Assembly: GCA_947570625.1 (NCBI GenBank)
Contig: CANOUP010000014.1
Span: 1 to 49,177, forward strand
Direction of reading: 5' to 3'
DNA from: an uncultured Clostridia bacterium
Lineage (GTDB): Bacteria; Bacillota; Clostridia; Christensenellales; Borkfalkiaceae
Length of the DNA: 49,177 nt
Positions 1,041-14,390 of this stretch are shown piece after piece (the first letter of the stretch is position 1; every line of letters starts with the position of its first letter). A program made the position numbers and the translations under genes. The notes below the pieces were generated by a model. It saw only the letters and a program-made list of their open reading frames with translations, was not told the origin of the DNA and made no database searches.

Positions 1041-3608
1041 TTATTGGTACAAAATATTATCTGATGAATAGCCTACAAGCTCATTAGTATTATTCCCGCC
1101 AGTTACTTTGGCAAGGTTTTTACTTCCCGTTATTGCACTTACATAAGTGGCTGTTCCTATTAAACCACCTATCTTTTCTCCACTCGCTTTTACATTCCCT
1201 TTATTAGTACAACCTATTAACTCTATATACCCATAATAGTAGTTATAATTTCCGTAGCTGACTTTGTACGAGCTTTGGTATCCGTGCGCTTCTCCAAATA
1301 AGCCGCCCACGTTTGAAGTTCCTGTAATCTCGCCTTCGTTCACATTGTTTTCTACATTGAACGTTACGTTATTGTAGCTACTCTCTGCACCCAAATATCC
1401 CGCGATTCCGCCAACATACGTAGTTCCTGTTATTTTACCTCTATTCGTATTTTCGTTTAGACTTGTACCTTTCGGCATCACCATATATCCAGCTATACCG
1501 CCAGTATAAGCACCTTTCGCTGTTATATCTACTGTGTTTTTACAATTCGACGCATCCGAGCATTTGCCTGCAAGACCACCTACGTATGAGCAATTAACGT
1601 TACTTTCTGTTATTGTATTTGTTGTTACAATCGTTCCGTTATTCTCACACTCAGCCAACTTTGTACTCGCGCCACAACCTACAATACCGCCAACATACGC
1701 TTTGCCTGTTATCGTATTGCTATTTATATAACCATTTATTGTTGCACCGTTAGAAATGTATCCTGCAAGTCCACCCGTATAGTTGCCGCCTGTTATGTTC
1801 GCAAGGTTTTCACACGAATAGACCATCAATTCGGACATACTCAAATATCCTACAAGTCCGCCCGTATAGTCACGACCTTCTACTGTTGCTAAATTGCGGT
1901 TTGACTCAAAGGACGTTAAGTTGGAGTAAACATATCCTACTAATCCGCCTGTATATTCTGCACCACCCGTTACTTCGCCATTATTGGTACTTCCATTTAC
2001 ACTTTCTGCCCAACCAGCGAGTCCACCTACATATTTACTATTCCCAGTTATCTCGCCATAATTTTCACTATCCGTTATAGATGTACATTTGCCTGCAAGT
2101 CCGCCAACATACATACCTGTTCCAGTAATATCTACTTCGTTTTTACACGAATCTACCGTCCCACACGTACCTGCCAATCCGCCGATATATGTATATCCGT
2201 CTGTTGTGGCTCTTTTCGCTATTACACTACCACTGTTTTCACAGCTGCTTAGGTTTGCTCCACTACCTACTATTCCGCCCAAATACGCTAATCCAGTTAT
2301 TGTATTTTCATTTCGAGCACCCGTAATGGTAAGTGTGCCACCGCCGGAATATCCGCCTAAATATCCACCAACATAATTCCCACCGGTTATATCTGCAAGA
2401 TTTTTACTTTCTGTTATTGCACTTACATAAGTGGCTGTTCCTATTAAACCACCTATCTTTTCCCCACTTGCTTTTACTTCGCCTTCATTAGTACAGCTTA
2501 TTAACTCTATATTCCCGTAATAGTAATTGTAATTTCCATAGCTGACTTTGTACGAGCTTTGATATCCGTGTGCTTCTCCAAATAAGCCACCCACGTTTGA
2601 AGTTCCTGTAATCTCGCCTTCGTTCACATTGTTTTCTACATTGAACGTTACGTTATTGTAGCTACTCTCTGCACCCAAATATCCCGCGATTCCGCCAACA
2701 TACGTAGTTCCTGTAACCGTGTTCGTATTCGTATTGCCCTTTAGTTCCCCATTGGTCGGTAATACTATGTATCCTGCTATTCCTCCAACGTATTCGGACG
2801 CCGTAATATCTGCGTTGCATTTTGAATTTGTTATTATACCTTTATTTTCGACTTTGCCCGCTATTCCGCCAACATACGAAGATGACGGAGCTTCTATCGT
2901 TCCTGAAACAGAACAGTTGCTGATTTGCCCATTACTAACCCCTGCCAATATACCTATATTGGTTTGCTTGCTTTTTGTCTTTATCGTCGCATCAACAATG
3001 TTCAAATCATATACATTGCCCGTAAGCTTAGCGAACAACCCGATATTATCTGACTTGGCATCAATAATAAAGTTTTTGATTGTATGCCCTGCCCCACTAA
3101 AATTACCCGAAAAATCAAATGGAATCCAATTGGCATTCCCCAAATCAATATCGCAAGTCAATTCATAAGATTTAGTTGTACCGGAAATTGCTTTAAACTC
3201 TTCTACTGAACTAATCGTATTAGCATAAAAACTGATAGATACAGTGTTACTTTCAGCAACAACTTCTCCATCTTCAATATAGGATAATTTGATAGAAGCA
3301 GAACCCGACTTGGAAGCAATAACAAATGTATCCCACCAATTTTTCTTATTATCTAAAGTATGCGAAAATTGAGCATCACAAGAATTTTCGCCAACGAATT
3401 CATACTTTATTTTATCTTGCAAAAATGGTGAAAAGCTCGCAGATTTTTCAAGTTTAACAGGCGCGCCCACCTCAGCAGATTCGTCGATAGAAATAGTTAT
3501 AGTCTTTGTGCCACTCGATCCGTTATCTCCACACGCAACTAATCCTATCAAGCAAAATGCGGAGATAATCAAAGTCAAGATTATTAAAGATAAATGTTTC
3601 CTTTTCAT
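1041..3608 (-). CDS. GLUG-repeat surface lipoprotein, 855 aa, with recent internal duplication
   Basis: Signal peptide with lipobox LVAC (acceptor Cys 26), a Ser/Gly-rich linker, an Ig-like region to about residue 130, then some twenty GLUG-type repeats (YVGGIAG, YTGGLVG) to the C-terminus. Such repeats are known from secreted adhesins and surface-layer-type proteins and are expected to form a beta-solenoid. The repeat units alternate with short Asn/Glu-rich loops. Two 314-bp stretches inside the gene (1117-1430 and 2401-2714) are nearly identical, so the solenoid was recently lengthened by duplication. There is no LPXTG motif, so anchoring is by lipid. It is 15 bp downstream of the HExxH membrane gene in the same operon. 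Its Shine-Dalgarno is weak, which suggests coupling. Function is inferred only as an extracellular binding protein. Confidence 0.88.
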   Translation of the reverse strand: MKRKHLSLIILTLIISAFCLIGLVACGDNGSSGTKTITISIDESAEVGAPVKLEKSASFSPFLQDKIKYEFVGENSCDAQFSHTLDNKKNWWDTFVIASKSGSASIKLSYIEDGEVVAESNTVSISFYANTISSVEEFKAISGTTKSYELTCDIDLGNANWIPFDFSGNFSGAGHTIKNFIIDAKSDNIGLFAKLTGNVYDLNIVDATIKTKSKQTNIGILAGVSNGQISNCSVSGTIEAPSSSYVGGIAGKVENKGIITNSKCNADITASEYVGGIAGYIVLPTNGELKGNTNTNTVTGTTYVGGIAGYLGAESSYNNVTFNVENNVNEGEITGTSNVGGLFGEAHGYQSSYKVSYGNYNYYYGNIELISCTNEGEVKASGEKIGGLIGTATYVSAITESKNLADITGGNYVGGYLGGYSGGGTLTITGARNENTITGLAYLGGIVGSGANLSSCENSGSVIAKRATTDGYTYIGGLAGTCGTVDSCKNEVDITGTGMYVGGLAGKCTSITDSENYGEITGNSKYVGGLAGWAESVNGSTNNGEVTGGAEYTGGLVGYVYSNLTSFESNRNLATVEGRDYTGGLVGYLSMSELMVYSCENLANITGGNYTGGLAGYISNGATINGYINSNTITGKAYVGGIVGCGASTKLAECENNGTIVTTNTITESNVNCSYVGGLAGKCSDASNCKNTVDITAKGAYTGGIAGYMVMPKGTSLNENTNRGKITGTTYVGGIAGYLGAESSYNNVTFNVENNVNEGEITGTSNVGGLFGEAHGYQSSYKVSYGNYNYYYGYIELIGCTNKGNVKASGEKIGGLIGTATYVSAITGSKNLAKVTGGNNTNELVGYSSDNILYQ
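1117..1430 (-). repeat. Direct repeat copy A inside the GLUG lipoprotein gene
   Basis: Aligns without gaps to 2401-2714 (offset 1284 bp, a whole number of codons). By eye about 18 of 314 positions differ. The differences are confined to the low-coordinate part, and the last 120 bp or so are identical, as if a recent gene-conversion tract homogenised that end. Confidence 0.9.
2401..2714 (-). repeat. Direct repeat copy B inside the GLUG lipoprotein gene
   Basis: Partner of copy A at 1117-1430, in the same reading frame and orientation. It encodes the same GLUG units, including the YVGGIAGYLGAESSYNN stretch. Recombination between the copies would remove or add 428 codons in frame, so it could create length variants of the protein. 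Confidence 0.9.
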
Positions 3609-3623
3609 ATCAAAACCTATTTT

Positions 3624-4442
3624 TTATTTTTTTGCAACTTTGGTAATCCCCTTTATCGCCAGTCCAAATAGAACCAAGACTCCTGAAAAAATTGCAGACA
3701 AAGCAAGGAATCCCGCAATTGTTAACGAAAAAGATGTCATTGCCGTTGTTACTGCTTCTAATGCGGGTAACGACACAAAATACATTATTATATCCGCTAT
3801 TAAAAGCAACCCTGCGATAAACAAAAAGCCTTTGAATCCGCCCTTAATATCGGCAGTACTTAATTCCATATGGCTTGAAATCATCAAAGCCAAAATCATA
3901 AACAGCCACCACAAGACATTACCCATATTTGTGAATTCAAAAATATCAGTCACTATATCCCAAAATAATTGTAAATATCCTGCATAAGTCGATGCTTCCC
4001 AAAAGTTTGTAGATAGTAACTCAACAAACTGTATTTCTGCCATCACATCGGTAAATACATCATTAACCATTAAAAACATTAACAGTATCAACAAACCGCT
4101 TCCACATAAAATAGGGGCGATACCTATAAAAAAATTCCCTATCTGATGATATAAGTTTTTAGGATTGTATGTATGATTTACATATCCCAATGTTCCATCG
4201 GTTGAATTTGGCTGATACAGTTTTATCTCAGTTATCTTGTGTCCGAAAACAACACACATCAAAGCGTGGCTTAATTCGTGTATAGGCGTACCGACTACGC
4301 CTGTAGCAAGTAAAATCTTCGTTGCATTATCACCAACAATCTTATAAAATGCTTTACGGCATAGGGCAATAATAAGTCCGAAAACAACTATTACCCCTAC
4401 CGTAAACACCAACTGATATATAAAGTTAGTAAAAATCTCCAT
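3624..4442 (-). CDS. Integral membrane protein with HExxH zinc-protease-like motif
   Basis: 272 residues with about six hydrophobic segments. An N-terminal membrane helix is followed by HELSHA at residues 55-60, the zinc-binding glutamate/histidine signature of membrane metalloproteases such as the M50 site-2 family, here placed at the start of the second hydrophobic stretch. A second metal-ligand motif typical of M50 (NPDG or similar) was not recognised, so membership is tentative. The gene starts 5 bp after the stop of the upstream lipoprotein gene without a Shine-Dalgarno, so translational coupling is likely. Being the only non-lipoprotein in the operon, it could process or export its neighbours' products. 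That is inference. Confidence 0.75.
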   Translation of the reverse strand: MEIFTNFIYQLVFTVGVIVVFGLIIALCRKAFYKIVGDNATKILLATGVVGTPIHELSHALMCVVFGHKITEIKLYQPNSTDGTLGYVNHTYNPKNLYHQIGNFFIGIAPILCGSGLLILLMFLMVNDVFTDVMAEIQFVELLSTNFWEASTYAGYLQLFWDIVTDIFEFTNMGNVLWWLFMILALMISSHMELSTADIKGGFKGFLFIAGLLLIADIIMYFVSLPALEAVTTAMTSFSLTIAGFLALSAIFSGVLVLFGLAIKGITKVAKK

Positions 4443-4447
4443 AACTA

Positions 4448-7312
4448 TTAATCGTTATTATAAACAACAGATATTTCAGTTGACTTATTGGAATTGAGTT
4501 TATATATGCCATTATCATCAAACTCATTACCAATCACCTGAACTTGAATTTTGTATGTTGCACCAACAGTTGTCATTGTAAACGAATAGGTTATGTACTC
4601 ATCTGTTTCAGAAATAACGTTATTTCTTTCTATTCCTCCTACAAACAACTTATAGCCCGTTGCTCCTGCTTGCTTCTTAACGGTAACCGTAATGGTATTA
4701 CCGCTTGTTTCAACTTTGAAAGAATTAGAATTTGTTAAAGCATCCTGACAAACGGGTTGGGTAATTCTTGATACTCTTTGCGTGAACGAGTAGATTTCAG
4801 AATTGATAATATCCGATCCGTTACCAACTGCTCTAATACTAACTTCAAATTCGCCCTCAGTAGTAAACGTGGGGGTATAAGAATTAGTTTTTACAACAGA
4901 CCACGTGGCGTCTTTGCTCAACTTTATTTCGTATCCAGTTGCACCTGCAACTGCATCCCAAGAATAACTATCACCATTTTTAACAAAATTAGAAACCTGC
5001 GCTAATTTGGTAAATGTGAACGAGTTGGATTCAGGAGAATCTACCGTTTGCACATTATCTCCAAGTGCAACAACAGATACCGTATAGCTTCCAACACCAA
5101 AATTGGTCATAGAATACGAGCTTCCAGTAACACGGACTTCATTTGTCGCTTCACCGGATTTAGTAATCAGTAATTTATATGAATTACAATTGATACTATC
5201 AACGGACGAAGGATTCCAAACAAGCATATCCCCACTAACCTTAACAGTCGAAGGGCGATTATACTTGCTTATCGTCTTTGTAGCAGATACATCGGAGTTA
5301 ATAACGTCCGTGCCATTGCCGATAGCATAGACACTTATCTGAGTTCCGTGTCCTTCGGCAATAGTGCTTGCATATCCCATTAAATCGAACGAAGTAGAAT
5401 CTGCATTATAAGATTCTGTTCCGAGAATAACTTTGTATGCTGTGGCATCAGGAACAGTTCCCCACGTCAACAATCCGTTGGTTATTATTAAATTCGACGG
5501 TGTTACAAGTTTTTTAACAGCTAATGCATTGGAGAAGCCACCTGTTATTACTTCTTCTCCGTTGCCCATAGCCTGAACATATATAGAATGTGTTCCAGCC
5601 GCCATATCCGTCAATGTAAATTCCGTTGTAGTAACTTCTGTACGTTTTCCATCAACCGTCAATACATACTTGCTCGTATGATTTACCGAATCCCAATTGA
5701 TAACATTTCCGTTTATCATCAAATTCTGCGGCGTTGCCAATTTTGTTACATTAAATTCAAGTGGTACTTTGCAATCAAGTATTGCACCGTCGGTCGTAAC
5801 TGAACCACGCGCAATAATTTGGAAATTCACAACAGACTCTTCAACTTTATTTGTCATTTTGGATAAATCCACAGAAAAAGTTGAACCATTAGTAATAGTC
5901 GCAATTTCCACATCATCGGCAAGCAAGGCGTAACCTGATGCACCCAAAGAAGGAGTAAATGTTACTGATACCTGATTTTGTTCTAACGGTCTATTGATAA
6001 TTTGTTTATTTGTGGGCGTTGCCAACCGTTTAACAGGATAAGCTGTACTGAATTTGGATTCATATATGCCACCCATTCCAAGTGACGTTGCCTTTACATA
6101 TACAAGATAATCTCCCGCATCTTCAAAAGCATAATCGTAAACAAAGGTCTCCTCTCCTACTGCCGTAGTATGAATAACTTCGTTATCTTTTTCAATCTTT
6201 AACTCATACCCCGCACAACCCGTCACCTGATTCCAACGTATAACACCATCGCTATAACTAACCACAGGGCTACGGAGAATATTGACAGTTATCTCATTTG
6301 ACCAATGCGAGAACCAGAAATCGCCCTTGCCAATGGGATAAATTTGAATACGATAACTACTGCCGCTTGCAAGTGCGGCATACTCGTTTGTGGTTAACTC
6401 TTCATTATTTACGACGCCATTAACCTTTATTTTATAGCGAACGGCGTTCTCAGAAGCTGTCCATTTCAACTTACCATCCGACACGGTTAATCCCTCAATA
6501 GGCGCAATATATGTATAGGTTTTCGCGTCAGAATACACCGAATCGTAAGTATTGTTATTTTTGTTTCCGACAGCATAAATCGAAACAGTAAAATCCTCGT
6601 TACCCGCTACATAACCATAACTATTTGTTGAAGAAGTGAACTCCTCATTGCCGATTTTTACGACATACGAAGTCGCATCTTGCACTTTCTCCCAGGTAAA
6701 TACTTCGGAATCATATGTAATATTTGTAGGTGCAGATAAAACTGTTCCTGTTAATGTATCACTCCACAGCGAATAGTAAGGAATATTTCCGTCAGAACTT
6801 TCAGCCTGTCCTTTCAAAGCGCGTACTTTATAGGAAAATGAACCTGATGTGGCAGGATAACTGTTTGTCCCAACCGCACTTGATACTATATTCCCATTAT
6901 ACATAATCTCGTATTTCTCTGCGGTATCCAATGTATTCCAAGTCAAATTACCTTGCTCTATAGCAAGTCCCGTTACTTGACCGATATTTTCAAAACGAAT
7001 AGAATAAGTAGGATTTTTATCACTACCTTCTTTGATTACAGCTTCAATAGAAAAATCAAAATCTTCTCCATTGGAATTGTATCTGTATGAAACAGTACCG
7101 TCAGCTTGACTGACAATAGATTCGGTGCCGTTATTTATGTTTATTTTATAATTCTTTGCATTTTTAACGGAACTCCAAGTAATTTGTTCTCCGTTGTATG
7201 TAAGGTTAGTAATGCTTTTTGCACCACTATCACCATTAGAACAAGCGGCAAAAATGACGCCCACCCCTATTACCATAAGCACACAAGCTAACAGAGTTAA
7301 TAATTTTTTCAT
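4448..7312 (-). CDS. Lipoprotein of tandem fibronectin-III-like domains, 954 aa
   Basis: Signal peptide with lipobox FAAC (acceptor Cys 24). The mature part consists of roughly nine repeats of 90-100 residues, each opening with a strand pattern such as LTWNTLDTAEKYEI or ISWDSV..A..Y, followed by SNSYT-type and VRALG/VYAIGNG strands. This is the hallmark of Fn3-like beta-sandwich domains common in secreted clostridial proteins that bind carbohydrate or host matrix. No catalytic domain is visible. GGAGG lies 7 nt before the ATG. The gap to the upstream BspA/InlB gene is 15 bp and to the downstream membrane gene 5 bp, so it is part of the same operon. Confidence 0.85.
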   Translation of the reverse strand: MKKLLTLLACVLMVIGVGVIFAACSNGDSGAKSITNLTYNGEQITWSSVKNAKNYKININNGTESIVSQADGTVSYRYNSNGEDFDFSIEAVIKEGSDKNPTYSIRFENIGQVTGLAIEQGNLTWNTLDTAEKYEIMYNGNIVSSAVGTNSYPATSGSFSYKVRALKGQAESSDGNIPYYSLWSDTLTGTVLSAPTNITYDSEVFTWEKVQDATSYVVKIGNEEFTSSTNSYGYVAGNEDFTVSIYAVGNKNNNTYDSVYSDAKTYTYIAPIEGLTVSDGKLKWTASENAVRYKIKVNGVVNNEELTTNEYAALASGSSYRIQIYPIGKGDFWFSHWSNEITVNILRSPVVSYSDGVIRWNQVTGCAGYELKIEKDNEVIHTTAVGEETFVYDYAFEDAGDYLVYVKATSLGMGGIYESKFSTAYPVKRLATPTNKQIINRPLEQNQVSVTFTPSLGASGYALLADDVEIATITNGSTFSVDLSKMTNKVEESVVNFQIIARGSVTTDGAILDCKVPLEFNVTKLATPQNLMINGNVINWDSVNHTSKYVLTVDGKRTEVTTTEFTLTDMAAGTHSIYVQAMGNGEEVITGGFSNALAVKKLVTPSNLIITNGLLTWGTVPDATAYKVILGTESYNADSTSFDLMGYASTIAEGHGTQISVYAIGNGTDVINSDVSATKTISKYNRPSTVKVSGDMLVWNPSSVDSINCNSYKLLITKSGEATNEVRVTGSSYSMTNFGVGSYTVSVVALGDNVQTVDSPESNSFTFTKLAQVSNFVKNGDSYSWDAVAGATGYEIKLSKDATWSVVKTNSYTPTFTTEGEFEVSIRAVGNGSDIINSEIYSFTQRVSRITQPVCQDALTNSNSFKVETSGNTITVTVKKQAGATGYKLFVGGIERNNVISETDEYITYSFTMTTVGATYKIQVQVIGNEFDDNGIYKLNSNKSTEISVVYNND

Positions 7313-7327
7313 ATTGTTACCTCCAAT

Positions 7328-9448
7328 TTATTGATTATTATAACTCCAAATATGATTTGACATCTCGCTCCATTTGTCCGCTGTTCTATATTGGTCAAGA
7401 ATGTCCATAGAATTTTTTACATAGATACCAAAATCCGCATCTATATCATAAAAAGCATCCGCACCCAAAGTTGGCGGCGCACACTCAACTATAATTGTTT
7501 TAAGATTTGAGCAACTTCTAAAAGCTCTATCACCTATCGCTACAATATTTTGCGATATAGTAATCTTTTCAATATTTGAAAATGAAAATGCATTATCAGA
7601 AATCTTAACAACTTTTTGCGCATTAAGAATCTCTGGTATTACAACATCTGTATCAGTACCAAAATATTGCCTTATCGCATAGCCCCCATCAACTTCTTCT
7701 ATAGCAAAATCCCCATATATTGTGCCGAGCGAATAAATCTGAGATGATATGTTCCGCCAATTATTTTCCGATTGATACCGTTTTATCATTGTACTTGTAA
7801 CATAAACAGAGAAAGTATCTGATACACCGGACAATGCTGTTGCATTCAATGTCGGAACTTTACTCAGATCTATTTTCATTGCCTTCAAATTCAGGCAATC
7901 CAAGAAAGCATCTGCACCAATAGTAAACAATGCCGCATTACCTGAAATTGTCACGTTAATAAGATTTCGGCTATTTTCAAATGCACCCTTTTCTATTGAA
8001 GAAATTTTGTTTCCAATTTCTATAAACTTGATTTTTGAACCGCTGAATGCGTATTCTGATATTTTAGTAGCTGAAGGATCAATCAAACAAGTTTCCGCGT
8101 CCTTTGCTGCCGGATATTGTACAAGATATGTAGAGTTGCCTATTTTGTAATACAGCACTCCATCAAGAGCCATATACTTTTCGTTAGACGGTTCAACAAC
8201 TATATTCTCAAGTTTTGCCATATTACGGAAAGCACCCGTACCTATCGTTTTTACATTTTCGGATAAGTAAATATCCGTAATTAAACCACAATCAGAGAAA
8301 GTAAACTTCCCTATACTATTCACTTTATATGGTATATCAATGTTGGTTAATGCCGAACAACCAAAAAATAGATTATCAGGCAGACTTGTTATGGCTGTGG
8401 GAATATTAACCTTCTCTAATGCAGTACAGCCTTCAAATGCCGAGCCTGTAAATTCACTTATAGATTGCGGCAATATAATTTCTTTAACCGTAGAAGAGTT
8501 AATTTTATTTATTCGCGTTACCTTTTTTCCGTAGTATGAATCGGGTATAACTATTTTTTCAGCATTACCATTATATGTTACTTCATATTCTCTATCTTTT
8601 GTAGAAGCTATCGTAGTAAATTGAAGAATATCGTTTGAACCAATTTCAAATTTCGCGTACAAATTAACGTAATCGTCCAAGTTATCTGTTATTGTATAAG
8701 GAAACTTAATTGCAGATAAATTTGTCGAATCAACGCACCAAGAAACAAAACAATAGTTATCCTTTATGCTTGTAGGCAACTCATTTAATACCGTCCCAAC
8801 AGAATAGGTTACTTGATTAACTTCACTGCCATCTGTATTAAAAGCAAATGTGACAGTTTTCTCACCCCAATGTGCATATAATGTTGTTCCATCCCCGTTC
8901 AATGGATAAACACTATTATTGTAAATCTCGGCTTCCGTTGTCAAATTACCTGATACATCCGTGATTTGAACTCCGCTTGTTTTATCCGTAAACCAACCTA
9001 AAAAGGATGAACCACTCTTTTGCGGCACAGGAAATCGTGAAGAGATTTTTGCATCGTATGTAACAGCTAAATCGGATACGGTATTTTGCGCCGTTGCGCC
9101 ACAATAATCAAAAGTTATCTTATAATTATTAGCTTCCCAATGTGCAAATAATTTTGTTGGGTTATCGCCTTTCCAAGTCAACCCTGCACTATCGCCCTGT
9201 GCATCAGTATATGCCGAGCCACCTTCTTGCTCACTATACCAACCCAAAAAGGTATAGCCCGTTTTTGTTGCACTACCAAAATTATAAGTCGAATCTATCT
9301 TTGCACTTGATTCACGAACTATTGTGTTACCATCATATAACGTAACAGTAATGCTATTCGCACCACAAGCAGCCAATAATATACATAACGGTAATATCAA
9401 GCCAACAAACGCTAATAAAAAGTAATTTACTTTCTTACGGTCTGCCAT
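7328..9448 (-). CDS. InlB-repeat and BspA-type leucine-rich-repeat lipoprotein, 706 aa
   Basis: First gene of the lipoprotein operon. Lipobox LAAC (acceptor Cys 28) follows an N-terminal hydrophobic segment. Residues about 30-270 contain InlB B-repeat (Flg_new) modules with the signature GYTFLGWYSEQ and FLGWFTDK. From about residue 280 to the end there are BspA-type LRR_5 units such as VTSIGDRAF and KTIGTGAF, known from surface adhesins of Treponema, Bacteroides and Trichomonas. AGGAGA precedes the ATG by about 6 nt. Upstream, at 9495-9653, is a promoter-bearing inverted-repeat element that currently points away from the gene. I saw no good leftward promoter there, so expression may depend on inversion. 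Confidence 0.9.
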   Translation of the reverse strand: MADRKKVNYFLLAFVGLILPLCILLAACGANSITVTLYDGNTIVRESSAKIDSTYNFGSATKTGYTFLGWYSEQEGGSAYTDAQGDSAGLTWKGDNPTKLFAHWEANNYKITFDYCGATAQNTVSDLAVTYDAKISSRFPVPQKSGSSFLGWFTDKTSGVQITDVSGNLTTEAEIYNNSVYPLNGDGTTLYAHWGEKTVTFAFNTDGSEVNQVTYSVGTVLNELPTSIKDNYCFVSWCVDSTNLSAIKFPYTITDNLDDYVNLYAKFEIGSNDILQFTTIASTKDREYEVTYNGNAEKIVIPDSYYGKKVTRINKINSSTVKEIILPQSISEFTGSAFEGCTALEKVNIPTAITSLPDNLFFGCSALTNIDIPYKVNSIGKFTFSDCGLITDIYLSENVKTIGTGAFRNMAKLENIVVEPSNEKYMALDGVLYYKIGNSTYLVQYPAAKDAETCLIDPSATKISEYAFSGSKIKFIEIGNKISSIEKGAFENSRNLINVTISGNAALFTIGADAFLDCLNLKAMKIDLSKVPTLNATALSGVSDTFSVYVTSTMIKRYQSENNWRNISSQIYSLGTIYGDFAIEEVDGGYAIRQYFGTDTDVVIPEILNAQKVVKISDNAFSFSNIEKITISQNIVAIGDRAFRSCSNLKTIIVECAPPTLGADAFYDIDADFGIYVKNSMDILDQYRTADKWSEMSNHIWSYNNQ

Positions 9449-9500
9449 ATGTTCTCCTTTTATTTTTCAACAATGAACAAATTAAATTGTACGCGTACAC

Positions 9501-9520
9501 CTAATATCATAATAGGTGTA
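9501..9520 (+). repeat. Left inverted repeat of switch 1
   Basis: Core CTAATATCATAATAG followed by GTGTA. The surrounding 27 bp (9495-9521) form an almost perfect palindrome (12 of 13 pairs) centred on 9508. Confidence 0.85.
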
Positions 9521-9539
9521 CAAATCTTAAAGTTTGTAT

Positions 9540-9561
9540 CACCTAAAAAATAAAATAAGAC
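9540..9561 (+). promoter_or_regulatory. Conserved block shared by both switches (copy 1)
   Basis: CACCTA at 9540 followed by TAAGAC at 9556. Switch 2 has the same two words at 10409 and 10425, with the same 16-nt spacing and the same 27-nt distance from the left repeat's TAGGTG. It may be an accessory recombinase half-site, a site for a helper protein, or a conserved leftward regulatory element. Confidence 0.55.
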
Positions 9562-9590
9562 ATTTTTAATGCTGAATAACCAACAAACAC

Positions 9591-9619
9591 TTGCTTTATG
9601 GAAGAAAAAGTGTTATAAT
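9591..9619 (+). promoter_or_regulatory. Rightward sigma-A promoter inside switch 1
   Basis: TTGCTT at 9591-9596, 17-nt spacer, TATAAT at 9614-9619. The predicted transcript would start near 9626 and meet a terminator about 70 nt later without entering a gene on the plus strand. Confidence 0.75.
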
Positions 9620-9633
9620 TTTCTTTGTATATA

Positions 9634-9653
9634 TACACCTATTATGATAATAG
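9634..9653 (-). repeat. Right inverted repeat of switch 1
   Basis: Reverse complement of 9501-9520 except for one base. Its central 15 bp, CTATTATGATAATAG (9639-9653), is a perfect palindrome apart from the central base. The spacer TATGATA is exactly the inverse of TATCATA in the left copy. Confidence 0.85.
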
Positions 9654-9664
9654 ACGAAAAAGTT

Positions 9665-9697
9665 AAGGCATCAGAGTTTTGACTCTGATGCCTTTTA
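9665..9697 (+). terminator. Intrinsic terminator facing switch 1 promoter
   Basis: A 13-bp perfect stem (AAGGCATCAGAGT with its complement at 9682-9694), a 4-nt loop and a T-rich tail. It lies 12 bp beyond the right inverted repeat and would stop the rightward transcript in the present orientation. Confidence 0.85.
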
Positions 9698-9857
9698 TAT
9701 CAGGTCAGCACCAAATAAAATTTATGACGTGGCTGAAACCCATACGGCTTACTTCATACTCGGAATAAATCGGAGACTTCTTCGGTCAATTGTATGTGTT
9801 GCTCACTGAATACTATAAGGTTCTTATAACGGTGCGCCTTGATACCCTAATAATTAA
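9698..9857. other. Non-coding spacer, possible decayed coding remnant
   Basis: About 160 bp between the switch-1 terminator and the stop of the SLOG gene. On the minus strand a stretch of about 28 codons without a start reads protein-like (RYKNLIVFSEQHIQLTEEV) before a stop. It could be the tail of a lost gene or chance. Nothing else was recognised. Confidence 0.3.
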
Positions 9858-10337
9858 CTAACCATTTCGTTCCACACTTACCCTATCCACACGCTTGATT
9901 TCAATTCCGCGCTCTATCGCTTTATTCAAACAATGTGCCGCACCACCATAATCGCGTACTACATAGGCTACAAGCATATCGGAATTTTCTACAAGCCATT
10001 CGTTGCGTTTTGTTATGGCAGACTTATAGTGCACTTTATGAAGTTCTCTTGGATACTCCACCTCGTCATAGTAATTTTCATACGCTTCCATATCCGCAAC
10101 CGGATACGGTATAACAAGTATCAATGAACTATTATGTTCACCCAGCTCTCGCTTTGCTCGTTTAATTACGGAAGCTACAATAGTGTCAAATTCGCCATTA
10201 CGACCAACATAAAACTCAACGTACTCTTTTGAGTTTATCAACTCTCTAACAACAGAATCCACTTGATCTTCTACAAAGAAAAAATCGTCAACTTCTCGAT
10301 GTCCTATAAATGAAACGCGGTATATATCCATAGTCAA
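9858..10337 (-). CDS. SLOG-family (DUF1273/YpsA-like) nucleotide-binding-fold protein
   Basis: 159 residues. The opening VSFIGHRE, the central FYVGRNGEFDTIVASVIKRA and the C-terminal GGAAHCLNKAIERGIEI match the SLOG/DUF1273 Rossmannoid fold. Those proteins bind nucleotide-derived ligands and occur in nucleotide-signalling and conflict systems. The protein is soluble, with no signal or membrane segment. The frame begins at a TTG (10337) 12 nt after GGAGAGAG. An ATG at 10331 is the alternative start but lies 18 nt from that site. Directly upstream is switch 2 (10362-10514), whose promoter currently faces away, so expression may be phase-variable. Its partner or ligand is unknown. A sensor role is inference from the fold. 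Confidence 0.75.
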   Translation of the reverse strand: MTMDIYRVSFIGHREVDDFFFVEDQVDSVVRELINSKEYVEFYVGRNGEFDTIVASVIKRAKRELGEHNSSLILVIPYPVADMEAYENYYDEVEYPRELHKVHYKSAITKRNEWLVENSDMLVAYVVRDYGGAAHCLNKAIERGIEIKRVDRVSVERNG

Positions 10338-10366
10338 TTAGATGATAATTCTCTCTCCGTTTTGTT

Positions 10367-10385
10367 CACCTATTGTTGTAATAGG
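10367..10385 (+). repeat. Left inverted repeat of switch 2
   Basis: CACCTATTGTTGTAATAGG, paired with its inverse at 10496-10514 (18 of 19 bases). Confidence 0.9.
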
Positions 10386-10408
10386 TGAACAAAACCGTGC
10401 TTTTTGTA

Positions 10409-10430
10409 CACCTAAAAACTAACGTAAGAC
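10409..10430 (+). promoter_or_regulatory. Conserved block shared by both switches (copy 2)
   Basis: CACCTAAAAA followed by TAAGACA at the same distances as in switch 1. It includes a third CACCTA half-site. Read leftwards it contains TTGTCT and TACAAA 18 nt apart, a weak promoter-like alternative. Confidence 0.55.
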
Positions 10431-10450
10431 AAAAATATAACTTTGAGCCG

Positions 10451-10479
10451 TTGACTTTGACGGCTTATTTTGCTATAAT
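10451..10479 (+). promoter_or_regulatory. Rightward sigma-A promoter inside switch 2
   Basis: TTGACT at 10451-10456, 17-nt spacer, TATAAT at 10474-10479. The transcript would run only about 50 nt into the terminator at 10512-10540, which overlaps the end of the oppositely oriented recombinase gene. Confidence 0.8.
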
Positions 10480-10495
10480 AAAGGAAATTAAATCC

Positions 10496-10514
10496 CCTAT
10501 TACAACAATAGATG
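10496..10514 (-). repeat. Right inverted repeat of switch 2
   Basis: Contains CTATTACAACAATAG, the exact reverse complement of the left core, immediately next to the terminator stem. Confidence 0.9.
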
Positions 10515-10540
10515 GCTCATAATTCGTGAGCCATTTTTTA
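10512..10540 (+). terminator. Intrinsic terminator facing switch 2 promoter
   Basis: Stem ATGGCTCA (10512-10519) with TGAGCCAT (10527-10534), 7-nt loop, then six T. The T-tract is on the plus strand only, so it does not serve the minus-strand recombinase gene that ends at 10538. Confidence 0.85.
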
Positions 10541-11470
10541 TAATAATTTGCCCAAGCGATTCATCATCTCGCGCTTATGTTCCATAAGACTATGTACATA
10601 TCTATTGAGCGTTACATTGGCGTTTTTGTGTCCGAGTATTTCAGACAGTGTTTTAACATCCATTCCACATTCGAGCGCGCGAGTAGCAAACGTGTGTCGA
10701 AGCGAGTGAAAGCCTTTATGCGGAATATGTAGACGCTTCAAGAACAATTCAAAGCTACGCTGATATGCTCTAACGGATATGAGCTTATCCGAATCGGACG
10801 CGATCACATAAACGGAATTACTATCTTTCTTTAAGTTCCGCAAATACGGGATCAACTGCTTCGGGAACGGTATCTCTCTTTCCGAAGTTTCCGTTTTGGG
10901 CGTATCTGTTATGCGGGCGAACTGACCATTATCGTCTTTACCATCGTGGCAAGATTTAGATACCGATATTATGCCCTTTTGAAAATCTATATCACTCCAC
11001 TCCAAAGCAAGCAGTTCGCCAATACGCAATCCGGTATAAAGACACAACACCACACCGAACATTTTTGCCTTCTTTCCGTTCAACACCGCTTGTTCGATTT
11101 GTTTCTGTTCGGTAGGCGTAAAACAAGTTACCTGCTTTTCTCTTGCTTTCGGTCGTTTGATTTTGTCCGCTGTGTACTCTGAGATTTGTCCAATCGCATA
11201 AGCAACCTTCAACGAGTTCTGAATAACGGTTATTATGCCATTCACTGAATTTGCCGACAGCCCCTTGCCCGTTTTCAAGTTTCCGCTCTGCAAAAGTTCC
11301 GTTGTAAAGCGTTGCAAGATGAGCGGCGTGAGTTCGCACATCTCATAATCGCCAAGCGATCCGACAATATGTTGAGATACTATTTCCGAGTACCTGATGT
11401 ATGTTTTCTGTTTAGACGAAGGTTTGACATAGCTTTCGAGCCATTCCCTTAACCATTCTTTGTATTGCAT
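10538..11470 (-). CDS. Tyrosine recombinase (phage-integrase family), candidate switch invertase
   Basis: 310 residues, full length for the family. An N-terminal SAM-like DNA-binding domain occupies about residues 1-95, then the catalytic domain. The catalytic set is visible: Arg in TGLRIGE (about 149), Lys in the beta-hairpin TDTPKTETSERE, HSLRH (about 255), GH in ILGHKN and the nucleophile Tyr in NRYVH (about 290). AAGGAG lies 9 nt before the ATG. It resembles both integrases of mobile elements and promoter invertases. Its 3' end abuts switch 2, with the SLOG gene and switch 1 beyond, and no excisionase or att pair was seen. This makes a role in inverting the two promoters attractive, but it is unproven. 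It may instead be the relic integrase of the AT-rich island. Its own promoter is not obvious. Confidence 0.9.
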   Translation of the reverse strand: MQYKEWLREWLESYVKPSSKQKTYIRYSEIVSQHIVGSLGDYEMCELTPLILQRFTTELLQSGNLKTGKGLSANSVNGIITVIQNSLKVAYAIGQISEYTADKIKRPKAREKQVTCFTPTEQKQIEQAVLNGKKAKMFGVVLCLYTGLRIGELLALEWSDIDFQKGIISVSKSCHDGKDDNGQFARITDTPKTETSEREIPFPKQLIPYLRNLKKDSNSVYVIASDSDKLISVRAYQRSFELFLKRLHIPHKGFHSLRHTFATRALECGMDVKTLSEILGHKNANVTLNRYVHSLMEHKREMMNRLGKLL

Positions 11471-11513
11471 TGATTTATCTCCTTTCTGAATATTATTTTA
11501 TTTTAAACGAAAA

Positions 11514-11543
11514 GAAGCCGCACGAAAATTATCGTGCGGCTTC
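11514..11543 (-). terminator. Intrinsic terminator upstream of the recombinase gene
   Basis: 12-bp stem GAAGCCGCACGA with its complement, 6-nt loop. The minus strand continues with CTTTTCGTTT, so it probably ends leftward transcripts arriving from the ppdK side and insulates the recombinase. Confidence 0.75.
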
Positions 11544-11582
11544 CTGTGAATTGCCAATATTAAATTGTAATGTTTTATTATT

Positions 11583-11615
11583 AAGAGCCGATACAATTTG
11601 CATCGGCTCTTATTT
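11583..11615. terminator. Hairpin terminator near the island boundary
   Basis: 10-bp perfect stem AAGAGCCGAT / ATCGGCTCTT with a 9-nt loop and T-rich flanks on both sides. It lies just beyond a short minus-strand reading frame that stops at 11618. Confidence 0.65.
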
Positions 11616-11617
11616 TG

Positions 11618-11735
11618 TTAGAGATATACGTCCACAATAATTTCTTCCCATTGGGATTCGCGCGTTAGCACATTAAGAAATTTGCGACGATACTGCTTGG
11701 CTTCTTCAAAGCTAATGGAGAAAGACCAAAAAGGC
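11618..11735 (-). other. Possible gene fragment between ppdK and the island
   Basis: Beyond the ppdK stop a different minus-strand frame continues for about 39 codons and ends in the protein-like stretch LTRESQWEEIIVDVYL before TAA at 11618. No start codon with ribosome-binding site is visible after ppdK, so it is probably a 3' fragment of a gene broken when the AT-rich island arrived, or chance. The base composition shifts here from AT-rich to about even. Confidence 0.3.
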
Positions 11736-14390
11736 TTATTTTTTGTTCTCCTTGCTTTGTTTAATAGCAGCCTGGGCGGCCGCAAGGCGCGCGATGGGCA
11801 CGCGGTAAGGCGAGCAGGAAACATAGTTAAGACCTATGGCGTGGCAGAACTCGATTGACGAAGGGTCGCCGCCGTGTTCGCCGCAGATACCTACGTGAAG
11901 GTGCTTGTTTGCGCCCTTGCCGAGCTTAACAGCCATATCCATAAGCTTGCCTACGCCCTTGGTGTCAAGACGAGCGAACGGGTCGCTTTCGTAAATCTTG
12001 TTTGCGTAGTAAGAAGGAAGGAATTTGCCTGCGTCGTCGCGCGAGAAGCCGAACGTCATCTGCGTCAAATCGTTCGTGCCGAAGCAGAAGAAATCTGCTT
12101 CTTCCGCGATTTCGTCGGCGGTGAGCGCCGCACGGGGAATTTCTATCATGGTGCCGACTTCGTATTTGAGAGCAACGCCCGAAGCTTTGATAACTTCGTC
12201 CGCGGTAGCAACGACCGTCTTTTTAACGTAAGACAGTTCCTTGACTTCGCCCGTAAGGGGAATCATAATTTCGGGAACGACCTTCCAGTTCGGATGCTTC
12301 TTCTGAACGTTTATCGCCGCCTTAATAACGGCTTTGGTCTGCATAACTGCGATTTCGGGATAGGTTACCGTAAGACGGCATCCGCGGTGTCCCATCATCG
12401 GGTTGAACTCGTGCAGGTCGGAAATAAGCTGTTTAATCTGAGCGACGGTCTTGCCCTGCGTCTTTGCGAGTAATTTAATGTCTTCCTTGTCGGTGGGCAC
12501 GAACTCGTGAAGAGGGGGGTCAAGGAAACGGATAGTAACGGGCTGTCCTTCCAAAGCTTCCATAAGTCCTTCGAAGTCCGCCTGCTGCATGGGCTCGATT
12601 TTAGCAAGAGCCGCTTCTCTCTCTTCCACCGTGTCTGCGCAAATCATTTCTCTGAACGCGCCTATTCTCGCGGGGTCGAAGAACATATGCTCGGTACGGC
12701 AAAGACCGATACCCTGAGCGCCGAACGCGGCCGCCTGCTTTGCGTCGCCCGGAGTGTCTGCGTTGGTTCTTACGCCGAGCGCTTTATACTTGTCGGCAAG
12801 CTCCATAATTCTGCCGAAATAGCCCGAGTTGGGGTCTGCGGGAACGGTGGGAATAAGGCAGTCGTAGATATTACCGGTGGAGCCGTCGAGCGAAATGCCG
12901 TCGCCTTCCTTGAATACTTTGCCTGCAAGGGTGAACCTCTTGTTCTCCTCGTCCATCTTTATATCTCCGCAACCGGATACACAGCAGGTTCCCATACCGC
13001 GCGCAACAACCGCCGCGTGCGAAGTCTGACCTCCGCGAACGGTAAGGATACCCTGAGCGTACTTCATGCCTTCGATATCTTCGGGAGAAGTTTCAAGACG
13101 TACGAGAACGACTTTTTTACCCTTCTTGCCTTCGGTAACGGCGTCTTCCGCGGTGAATACGATACTGCCCGCGGCCGCGCCGGGGGAAGCAGCTATACCC
13201 TTGCCGATGACGTTTTTCTTGTCGGCTTCCTTCAAAGCCTTAACGTCGAACTGGGGATGAAGAAGCATATCGAGCGACTTTGCGTCAATCTGCATAAGAG
13301 CTTCTTTTTCGCTTATCATTTTTTCATCGATAAGGTCGCACGCAATTTTGATTGCGGCCGCCGCCGTACGCTTGCCGTTACGGGTTTGAAGCATATAAAG
13401 CTTGCCTTTTTCGATGGTGAATTCCATATCCTGCATATCGCGGTAGTGCTTTTCAAGCGTATTGCAGACTTCGAGGAACTGGTTGTAAACTTCGGGCAGA
13501 ACTTCCGCCATCTTTGCGATGGGCATGGGAGTACGTACGCCCGCAACTACGTCTTCGCCCTGGGCGTTCATAAGGAATTCGCCCATAAGTCCCTTTTCGC
13601 CCGTCGCGGGGTTACGAGTGAACGCAACGCCCGTTCCGCAGTCGTCGCCCATGTTGCCGAACGCCATCATCTGAACGTTGACGGCGGTACCCCACGAATA
13701 GGGGATATCGTGGTCCATACGGTAGATGTTTGCACGGGGGTTGTCCCACGAACGGAATACGGCTTTGACCGCTTCGAAAAGCTGTTCCTTGGGGTCGGTG
13801 GGGAATTCTTTGCCGAGCTGTGCTTTGTATTCTGCTTTGAACTGGTGGGCAAGGCTCTTCAAATCGTCGGCGGTGAGGTCGACGTCGAATTCCACGCCCT
13901 TTTCTTCCTTCATCTTATCGATGAGTTTTTCGAAATATTTCTTGCCGACTTCCATAACGACGTCGGAGAACATCTGAATAAATCTTCTGTAACAGTCCCA
14001 AGCCCAGCGGGGATTGCCGGACTTTTCCGCTATGGTATTAACTACGTCTTCGTTAAGACCGAGGTTGAGTATGGTATCCATCATGCCGGGCATGGAAGCT
14101 CTCGCGCCCGAACGTACGGAAACGAGCAGGGGGTTTTCCTTGTCCCCGAACTTCTTACCGCAGATTTCTTCCATCTTGTCGATATAGGTCAAAATCTCCT
14201 TCTGAATATCATCGTTGATTCTGCGCCCGTCTTCGTAGTACTGAGTGCAGGCTTCCGTCGAAATCGTGAAGCCCTGGGGTACGGGAAGACCTATATTTGT
14301 CATTTCGGCAAGGTTGGCACCTTTACCGCCCAAAAGTTCGCGCATTGTTGCATTACCCTCTTTGAAAAGATAGCAATACTTTTTTGCCAT
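11736..14390 (-). CDS. ppdK: Pyruvate, phosphate dikinase
   Basis: 884 residues, the usual size. The enzyme interconverts pyruvate, ATP and Pi with phosphoenolpyruvate, AMP and PPi in the cytoplasm, and in anaerobic Clostridia it often works glycolytically using PPi. Domains in order are an ATP-grasp nucleotide-binding domain (GGKGANLAEM near the N-terminus), the phosphohistidine swivel with GGQTSHAAVVARG (catalytic His near residue 455), and a PEP/pyruvate TIM barrel ending with GICGEHGGDP and the Cys-containing YVSCSPYRVP. The start is set at MAKKYCYLF because GGAGG lies 8 nt before this ATG. An upstream ATG at 14405 would place that ribosome-binding site inside the gene. It is monocistronic with its own promoter at 14431-14459. 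Confidence 0.97.
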   Translation of the reverse strand: MAKKYCYLFKEGNATMRELLGGKGANLAEMTNIGLPVPQGFTISTEACTQYYEDGRRINDDIQKEILTYIDKMEEICGKKFGDKENPLLVSVRSGARASMPGMMDTILNLGLNEDVVNTIAEKSGNPRWAWDCYRRFIQMFSDVVMEVGKKYFEKLIDKMKEEKGVEFDVDLTADDLKSLAHQFKAEYKAQLGKEFPTDPKEQLFEAVKAVFRSWDNPRANIYRMDHDIPYSWGTAVNVQMMAFGNMGDDCGTGVAFTRNPATGEKGLMGEFLMNAQGEDVVAGVRTPMPIAKMAEVLPEVYNQFLEVCNTLEKHYRDMQDMEFTIEKGKLYMLQTRNGKRTAAAAIKIACDLIDEKMISEKEALMQIDAKSLDMLLHPQFDVKALKEADKKNVIGKGIAASPGAAAGSIVFTAEDAVTEGKKGKKVVLVRLETSPEDIEGMKYAQGILTVRGGQTSHAAVVARGMGTCCVSGCGDIKMDEENKRFTLAGKVFKEGDGISLDGSTGNIYDCLIPTVPADPNSGYFGRIMELADKYKALGVRTNADTPGDAKQAAAFGAQGIGLCRTEHMFFDPARIGAFREMICADTVEEREAALAKIEPMQQADFEGLMEALEGQPVTIRFLDPPLHEFVPTDKEDIKLLAKTQGKTVAQIKQLISDLHEFNPMMGHRGCRLTVTYPEIAVMQTKAVIKAAINVQKKHPNWKVVPEIMIPLTGEVKELSYVKKTVVATADEVIKASGVALKYEVGTMIEIPRAALTADEIAEEADFFCFGTNDLTQMTFGFSRDDAGKFLPSYYANKIYESDPFARLDTKGVGKLMDMAVKLGKGANKHLHVGICGEHGGDPSSIEFCHAIGLNYVSCSPYRVPIARLAAAQAAIKQSKENKK

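Follow-up and report, generated by a model that had tools for sequence, protein, structure and literature searches.

A probable invertible promoter upstream of a lipoprotein operon in an uncultured Clostridia bacterium, with a nearby recombinase gene and related sites in the genus

How might an operon of lipoprotein genes be expressed when the promoter next to it points away from it? The question is raised by the window, a stretch of 49,177 nucleotides from an uncultured Clostridia bacterium (Borkfalkiaceae; assembly GCA_947570625.1, contig CANOUP010000014.1), which begins with a tightly packed operon on the minus strand made up of four complete genes and a fifth that the contig end truncates, mainly encoding lipoproteins. 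The first gene (7328-9448) encodes a lipoprotein of 706 residues with List_Bact_rpt and BspA-type leucine-rich repeats (LRR), the second (4448-7312) a lipoprotein of 954 residues, the third (3624-4442) a membrane protein of 272 residues that is similar to zincin peptidases (DUF3267, below the Pfam cut-off), and the fourth (1041-3608) a lipoprotein of 855 residues with GLUG motifs, followed by the truncated lipoprotein-like gene (1-1009), whose start was read by eye. The initial annotation had counted five surface genes here; four are indeed lipoprotein-like, including the truncated one, whereas the product of 3624-4442 rather resembles a membrane zincin peptidase.

Between this operon and the next gene lies the first of two candidate switches. 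Switch 1 is built on a 20-nt inverted repeat (9501-9520 and 9634-9653, one mismatch), which is the sole member of its class in the window (20 nt, at most one mismatch, gap of about 40-400 nt) and has no counterpart in ten dinucleotide shuffles of the window. Each repeat arm sits within a 27-nt dyad with an asymmetric centre, and the two dyads are the predicted recombination sites, one on the operon side (9495-9521, GTACACCTAAT-ATCAT-AATAGGTGTAC) and one distal (9633-9659, ATACACCTATT-ATGAT-AATAGACGAAA). Their centres are exact inverses of each other, both as 5-bp (ATCAT/ATGAT) and as 7-nt spacers (TATCATA/TATGATA). The 111 nt between them (9522-9632), the predicted inner part of the invertible segment, contain a promoter on the plus strand (9591-9619, TTGCTT-17-TATAAT) that points rightward, away from the operon, with a TGn preceding the -10 element, which ends at 9619. 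This promoter matches the consensus at 9 of 12 positions with a weak -35 element (3/6), which explains its absence from a stricter promoter scan. Beyond the distal site, a terminator-like hairpin with a 13-bp stem (9665-9694) separates switch 1 from a small SLOG-like gene; it was called on the minus strand by the scan, and the stem fits the plus strand too. Switch 1, which appears in a single orientation in the assembled window, thus has the layout by which invertons are recognized, namely inverted repeats around a promoter close to the 5′ end of a gene.

The other direction of transcription was also considered. Between the operon ATG and position 9700, no leftward promoter with at least 9 of 12 matches could be detected. 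The best candidates in that direction were four matches of 8/12, and a promoter permanently driving the operon was accordingly set aside; two 9/12 minus-strand matches fall within the first operon gene. A further candidate recognized by eye near the left site (TGTCTT-18-TACAAA) was rejected as too degenerate. When switch 1 is inverted in silico, both centres stay intact, the -10 element ends 86 nt before the operon ATG, and the resulting leader of approximately 80 nt starts with a hairpin formed by the site. The initial annotation had described the repeat with its inverse spacers, the promoter, the terminator, the missing leftward promoter, and the leader length after inversion, and each of them was borne out.

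A tyrosine recombinase gene (10538-11470) and a second switch (10364-10517), both absent from the initial annotation, are present to the right of switch 1. The recombinase (P0001, 310 residues, minus strand), which is the proposed invertase, contains a Phage_integrase domain (PF00589, E 3.4e-28) and a SAM-like N-terminal domain, and six residues found in the expected motifs (R149, K192, H255, R258, H281, and Y291) are those which we take to be catalytic. The solved structures closest to it are "Int protein" entries such as 6en0 (E 5.6e-17, residues 118-306), presumably the Tn1549 integrase, with which it shares a catalytic domain of the same superfamily. Enzymes of the 6en0 family move conjugative transposons, whereas P0001 accompanies small switches with inverted sites, and its length should leave no space for an arm-binding domain in addition to its SAM-like and catalytic domains.

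Switch 2 has the same layout as switch 1, with common half-sites and different 5-bp spacers. Its predicted sites are located on the gene side (10364-10390, GTTCACCTATT-GTTGT-AATAGGTGAAC) and on the integrase side (10491-10517, AATCCCCTATT-ACAAC-AATAGATGGCT), its promoter (10451-10479, TTGACT-17-TATAAT, 11/12) is on the plus strand, and a terminator-like hairpin directly behind it (10510-10536, plus strand) faces this promoter. Downstream of switch 2 is the small gene (9858-10331, minus strand; 157 residues from the ATG), whose product is only weakly similar to SLOG/YpsA-like proteins (E 0.15). Since both promoters point to the right, switches 1 and 2 are both OFF as assembled.

Two additional observations were made on switch 2 and its surroundings. 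A third half-site-like copy is found at 10406-10414, 15 nt inside the segment end, and likewise in genomes G123 and G124 (G, L, and C denote genomes, loci, and contigs, respectively). It scores 8/9 in switch 2 (reached by 3 of 200 shuffles), 9/9 in G124 (0/200), and 8/9 in G123 (7/200), and could possibly serve as an accessory binding site in these three; the best copy in switch 1 scores 6/9, a value reached by 169 of 200 shuffles, and nothing notable was seen in the other 17 pairs examined, and the copy carries no weight in the argument below. Besides, positions 9884-11776 of the window are 99.95% identical over 1893 bp to positions 5695-7587 of locus L049, in a metagenome-assembled genome (MAG) of another species (G120), with unrelated flanks. 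The shared block comprises the end of ppdK, the integrase gene, switch 2, and most of the SLOG-like gene, and of the ppdK gene in the window, L049 contains only the final ~41 nt, with no further ppdK match. Unless one of the two contigs is chimeric, this suggests that the block was recently transferred from a locus like that of the window.

The arrangement of these elements leads to the following proposal. Switch 1 is very probably an invertible promoter that is flipped by a tyrosine recombinase, most likely the product of 10538-11470, and that turns the lipoprotein operon ON and OFF. The recombinase would bind the two half-sites of ~11 bp in each 27-nt dyad and exchange strands within the matched centres of 5-7 bp, whereby the segment between the two sites would flip. 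In the assembled orientation, the promoter would fire rightward into the terminator and the operon would be OFF; in the flipped orientation, ~86 nt would separate it from the ATG of the first lipoprotein gene and the operon would be ON, with the terminator at 9665-9694 expected to insulate the operon from the SLOG-like gene. Switch 2 would do likewise for the small SLOG-like gene, and the differing spacers should bar recombination between the two switches. For the window itself, the flipping of switch 1, the identity of the acting recombinase, and the ON/OFF expression are all inferred from sequence, and relatives of these elements were compared across the genus.

A search of 93 genomes of the genus with a site pattern of two arms and a free 5-nt centre (at most two mismatches) yielded 38 occurrences in 14 genomes, compared with one for the reversed pattern used as a control. 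The argument rests on these tighter matches, because at up to three mismatches the window's own genome shows no excess (10 for the site pattern versus 15 for the control); this genome also has a two-mismatch place at C3:30430. Switch 1 as such was not found in the other genomes: nine of the 93 were matched at the DNA level, and beyond its own genome the matches were short pieces of the dyad only. The sites occur in inverted pairs that enclose a promoter, with spacings of 127-189 nt. In all 14 pairs called on the arms alone, the spacers are exactly inverse, that is, dyad half-sites surround a central overlap that is inverted between partners, as is characteristic of inversion by tyrosine recombinases. 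In a second pairing search, which demanded an exact match of the centres, 21 pairs remained once a chance partner in L117 had been discarded. These pairs are not all independent, since three represent copies of switch 2 of the window and some others are orthologous to one another. No exact-centre partner within 330 nt was found for eight strong sites in seven loci, six of these sites being near contig ends.

The position of these pairs relative to genes is consistent with promoter switches. In 20 of the 21 pairs, at least one neighbouring gene has its 5′ end toward the switch, the exception being L117, where both neighbours show their 3′ ends. The promoter faces a 3′ end in 15 pairs (OFF), a 5′ end in five (ON; L119, where both neighbours present 5′ ends, is counted here), and no called gene in the remaining one. 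The driven genes are often very long open frames, the longest of which spans 3011 codons and runs off the end of its fragment, and Pfam matches such as MBG_3 and DUF6273 are few. Within genomes, no spacer coincidence was observed (0/18, compared with a permuted mean of 1.45), which suggests selection for private addresses but is not significant, since chance yields zero in 17% of permutations.

Some loci with this site have unusual features. Helicase-like cargo was found near integrase-linked switches in L120 (8178-10532, G127) and L129 (2498-3286, G060), with matches to PADLOC PbeA (4e-21 and 8e-07, respectively), and some switches of this site family may therefore control defence-like genes. 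In L054 (1475-3062), sites with the inverse centres ATCAC and GTGAT flank the integrase gene itself and are contained in an inverted repeat (≥105 nt) located where the contig ends; either the integrase segment is itself invertible or the arrangement arose in assembly.

The most direct indication of inversion comes from homologous switches that point in opposite directions. When G049:C19 is compared with G009:C47, the inner segment matches at 116 of 123 positions if inverted versus 61 of 123 if read directly, while the flanks are collinear (107/120 on the left and 87/120 on the right). Individual pieces of the flanks show 90-93% identity on the right and 71-75% close to the switch and on its left, and the 185-bp switch as a whole matches at 94% in the opposite direction. 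The promoter is directed away from the neighbouring long gene in G049:C19 and toward it in G009:C47. A similar relationship is seen between G049:C4 (ON) and G004:C35 (OFF), where the leader is 82% identical in the same direction and the segment 80% identical when reversed; both switches precede related long surface genes (49% identity over 1100 amino acids), and the contig of G004:C35 starts inside the segment, with the far site outside it. Two integrase-linked switches within one genome (L052 and L053) also have inner segments that match at 112 of 142 positions inverted versus 60 of 142 directly. As judged from these alignments, sister switches with the same site are present in both orientations across species. 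In two genomes, contigs end at the sites (G004:C6/C25 and G008:C2/C8; L110, L111, L122, and L123), with shared tips of 55 and 127 bp, which may be a trace of mixed orientations; they were rejected as proof, because the shared part extends into the outer flanks or could derive from sister switches.

An alternative is that a DNA-binding regulator uses the dyads as operators and that the promoter does not move: the perfect 11-bp dyads do look operator-like, but this hardly credible reading gives no reason for centres that are exactly inverse within a pair and differ at other switches, nor for homologous segments inverted between conserved flanks.

Relatives of the window integrase (E ≤ 0.001), many of them distant, occur in 98 of 101 genomes of the wider order and at 11 loci in the named collection. 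We took 41 integrase loci, 38 of which had enough sequence to be scored (41-100% identity to the window integrase), including three that duplicate or nearly duplicate others (L020/L050, L028/L056, and the window/L049). An inverted repeat scoring at least 13 was found in the 420 nt downstream of the integrase gene in 22 of the 38 loci, within ~270 nt, and each of these repeats beats the best of its own 20 shuffles; only 2 of 36 upstream controls reached this score. A strong inverted repeat was not seen beside the integrase in the other 16 scored loci. In the 22 repeat-bearing loci, the promoter points toward the integrase in 19 and away from it in two, and was not recognized in one. Moreover, the site is present in nine of 11 genomes with a close integrase versus five of 82 others (Fisher p 1e-7), a close integrase being defined as E ≤ 1e-120 to the G107 enzyme, with a cut-off picked after the data had been seen. 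A complete tyrosine recombinase adjoins the switches in the window and also at the orthologous operon in G123 and G124. Taken together, it is likely that the recombinase at 10538-11470 flips switch 1. Such a link is not found everywhere: G004, G009, and G049, the genomes of the best-seen inversions, have several sites each and no close integrase in MAGs listed as 93-97% complete, so that either another recombinase acts there or the gene has been lost or is unassembled. As possible sources of another acting enzyme, six of the seven PF00589 loci of these three genomes (all except L159) were checked, and no site lies near them.

The orthologous operon provides a view of the same switch in other species. 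Relatives of the second lipoprotein are found in seven of the 93 genomes (E ≤ 1e-15), two of which, G123 and G124, encode orthologues with 69% identity. In both, the gene order is integrase, one switch, LRR lipoprotein, second lipoprotein, zincin-like protein, and GLUG protein, with identities to the window of 58%, 56%, 69%, 71%, and 35-38% for the five proteins, respectively; the window differs in that the small gene and switch 2 intervene between the integrase and switch 1. The switch centres read AAATC/GATTT in G123 and AAAAC/GTTTT in G124, which differ from those of the window yet match within each pair, implying that the centre has changed on both sides together.

The operon switches of G123 and G124 (L057) both point OFF, and all three observed copies are thus in the same state, as might be expected if switch 1 were a relic that formerly inverted and is now locked OFF, either because its distal arm has degraded or because the adjacent recombinase serves switch 2 only. 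The poor outer arm of the distal site (7/11) and the arms of switch 2, which read GTTCACC rather than GTACACC, would fit such a scenario. However, both spacers and the four core half-site ends of switch 1 are intact, and weak arms are frequent among the pairs; the distal site of switch 2 itself has two 7/11 arms and has nevertheless been kept together with the integrase in G060 and G120. Moreover, the integrase of G107, which is 70% identical to that of the window, adjoins a switch with GTACACC arms. A locked relic is therefore improbable in our view, and a switch 1 that can still invert remains preferred.

Another explanation is that a mobile cassette, consisting of the integrase and its cargo, uses the sites for attachment, with the inverted layout as a by-product of insertion. 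The nearly identical block shared with L049 indicates that this stretch has moved between species, and the cargo behind the integrase varies between genomes. However, the ends of the shared block (9884 and 11776) are not at the sites, many of the closely spaced inverted pairs have no integrase nearby, and inverted sites invert rather than excise, inversion being what the comparisons show. As a full explanation, such a cassette is very improbable, and an invertible promoter, OFF as assembled, is the best reading of switch 1, as the initial annotation had proposed; it is supported by the opposite orientations between species, the spacer identity within pairs, and the linkage to recombinase genes.

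Invertible promoters served by tyrosine recombinases are already established, including in Clostridia (PMC5903667, PMC11892184), and the locus in the window is very probably a new, well-supported example. By its description, it is similar to inverton group 139, which is associated with tyrosine-type invertase group 35 and comprises 33 invertons, 32 of them from the class Clostridia: in both cases, promoter-type invertible segments have a tyrosine-type recombinase or integrase nearby, but inversion in group 139 is described as read-based and in cultured strains (PMC11892184). RecV of Clostridioides difficile, as described in PMC5903667, is likewise a tyrosine recombinase that serves several small intergenic segments, some of which precede surface-protein genes; it works at a distance, and the repeats of its target segments are for the most part unrelated, whereas the switches in the window share half-sites, have individual spacers, and adjoin the recombinase gene. 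With Mpi of Bacteroides fragilis, the window would have in common the scheme of one invertase and many surface-gene promoters with a common repeat, but Mpi, according to the same source (PMC5903667), is a serine recombinase and the enzyme in the window is a PF00589 tyrosine recombinase, which places it outside the Mpi type.

A broader and considerably more tentative idea is that the genus possesses an addressed switchboard, in which one recombinase family and a shared 11-bp half-site would be combined with a separate 5-bp spacer for each promoter. Several very large surface genes per genome might then flip independently, and the recombinase-plus-switch module might pass between species and be set before different genes.

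With these findings, uncultured gut Clostridia known from metagenomes gain a family of promoter switches tested by orientation, together with a candidate enzyme and a defined site of 27 nt. Because this site is searchable, existing metagenomes could be used to read switch states, and the rule of matched spacers makes true switch pairs recognizable without reads. The combination of a compact recombinase, readable half-sites, and interchangeable spacers would also help to study how a single cell keeps several inversions apart.
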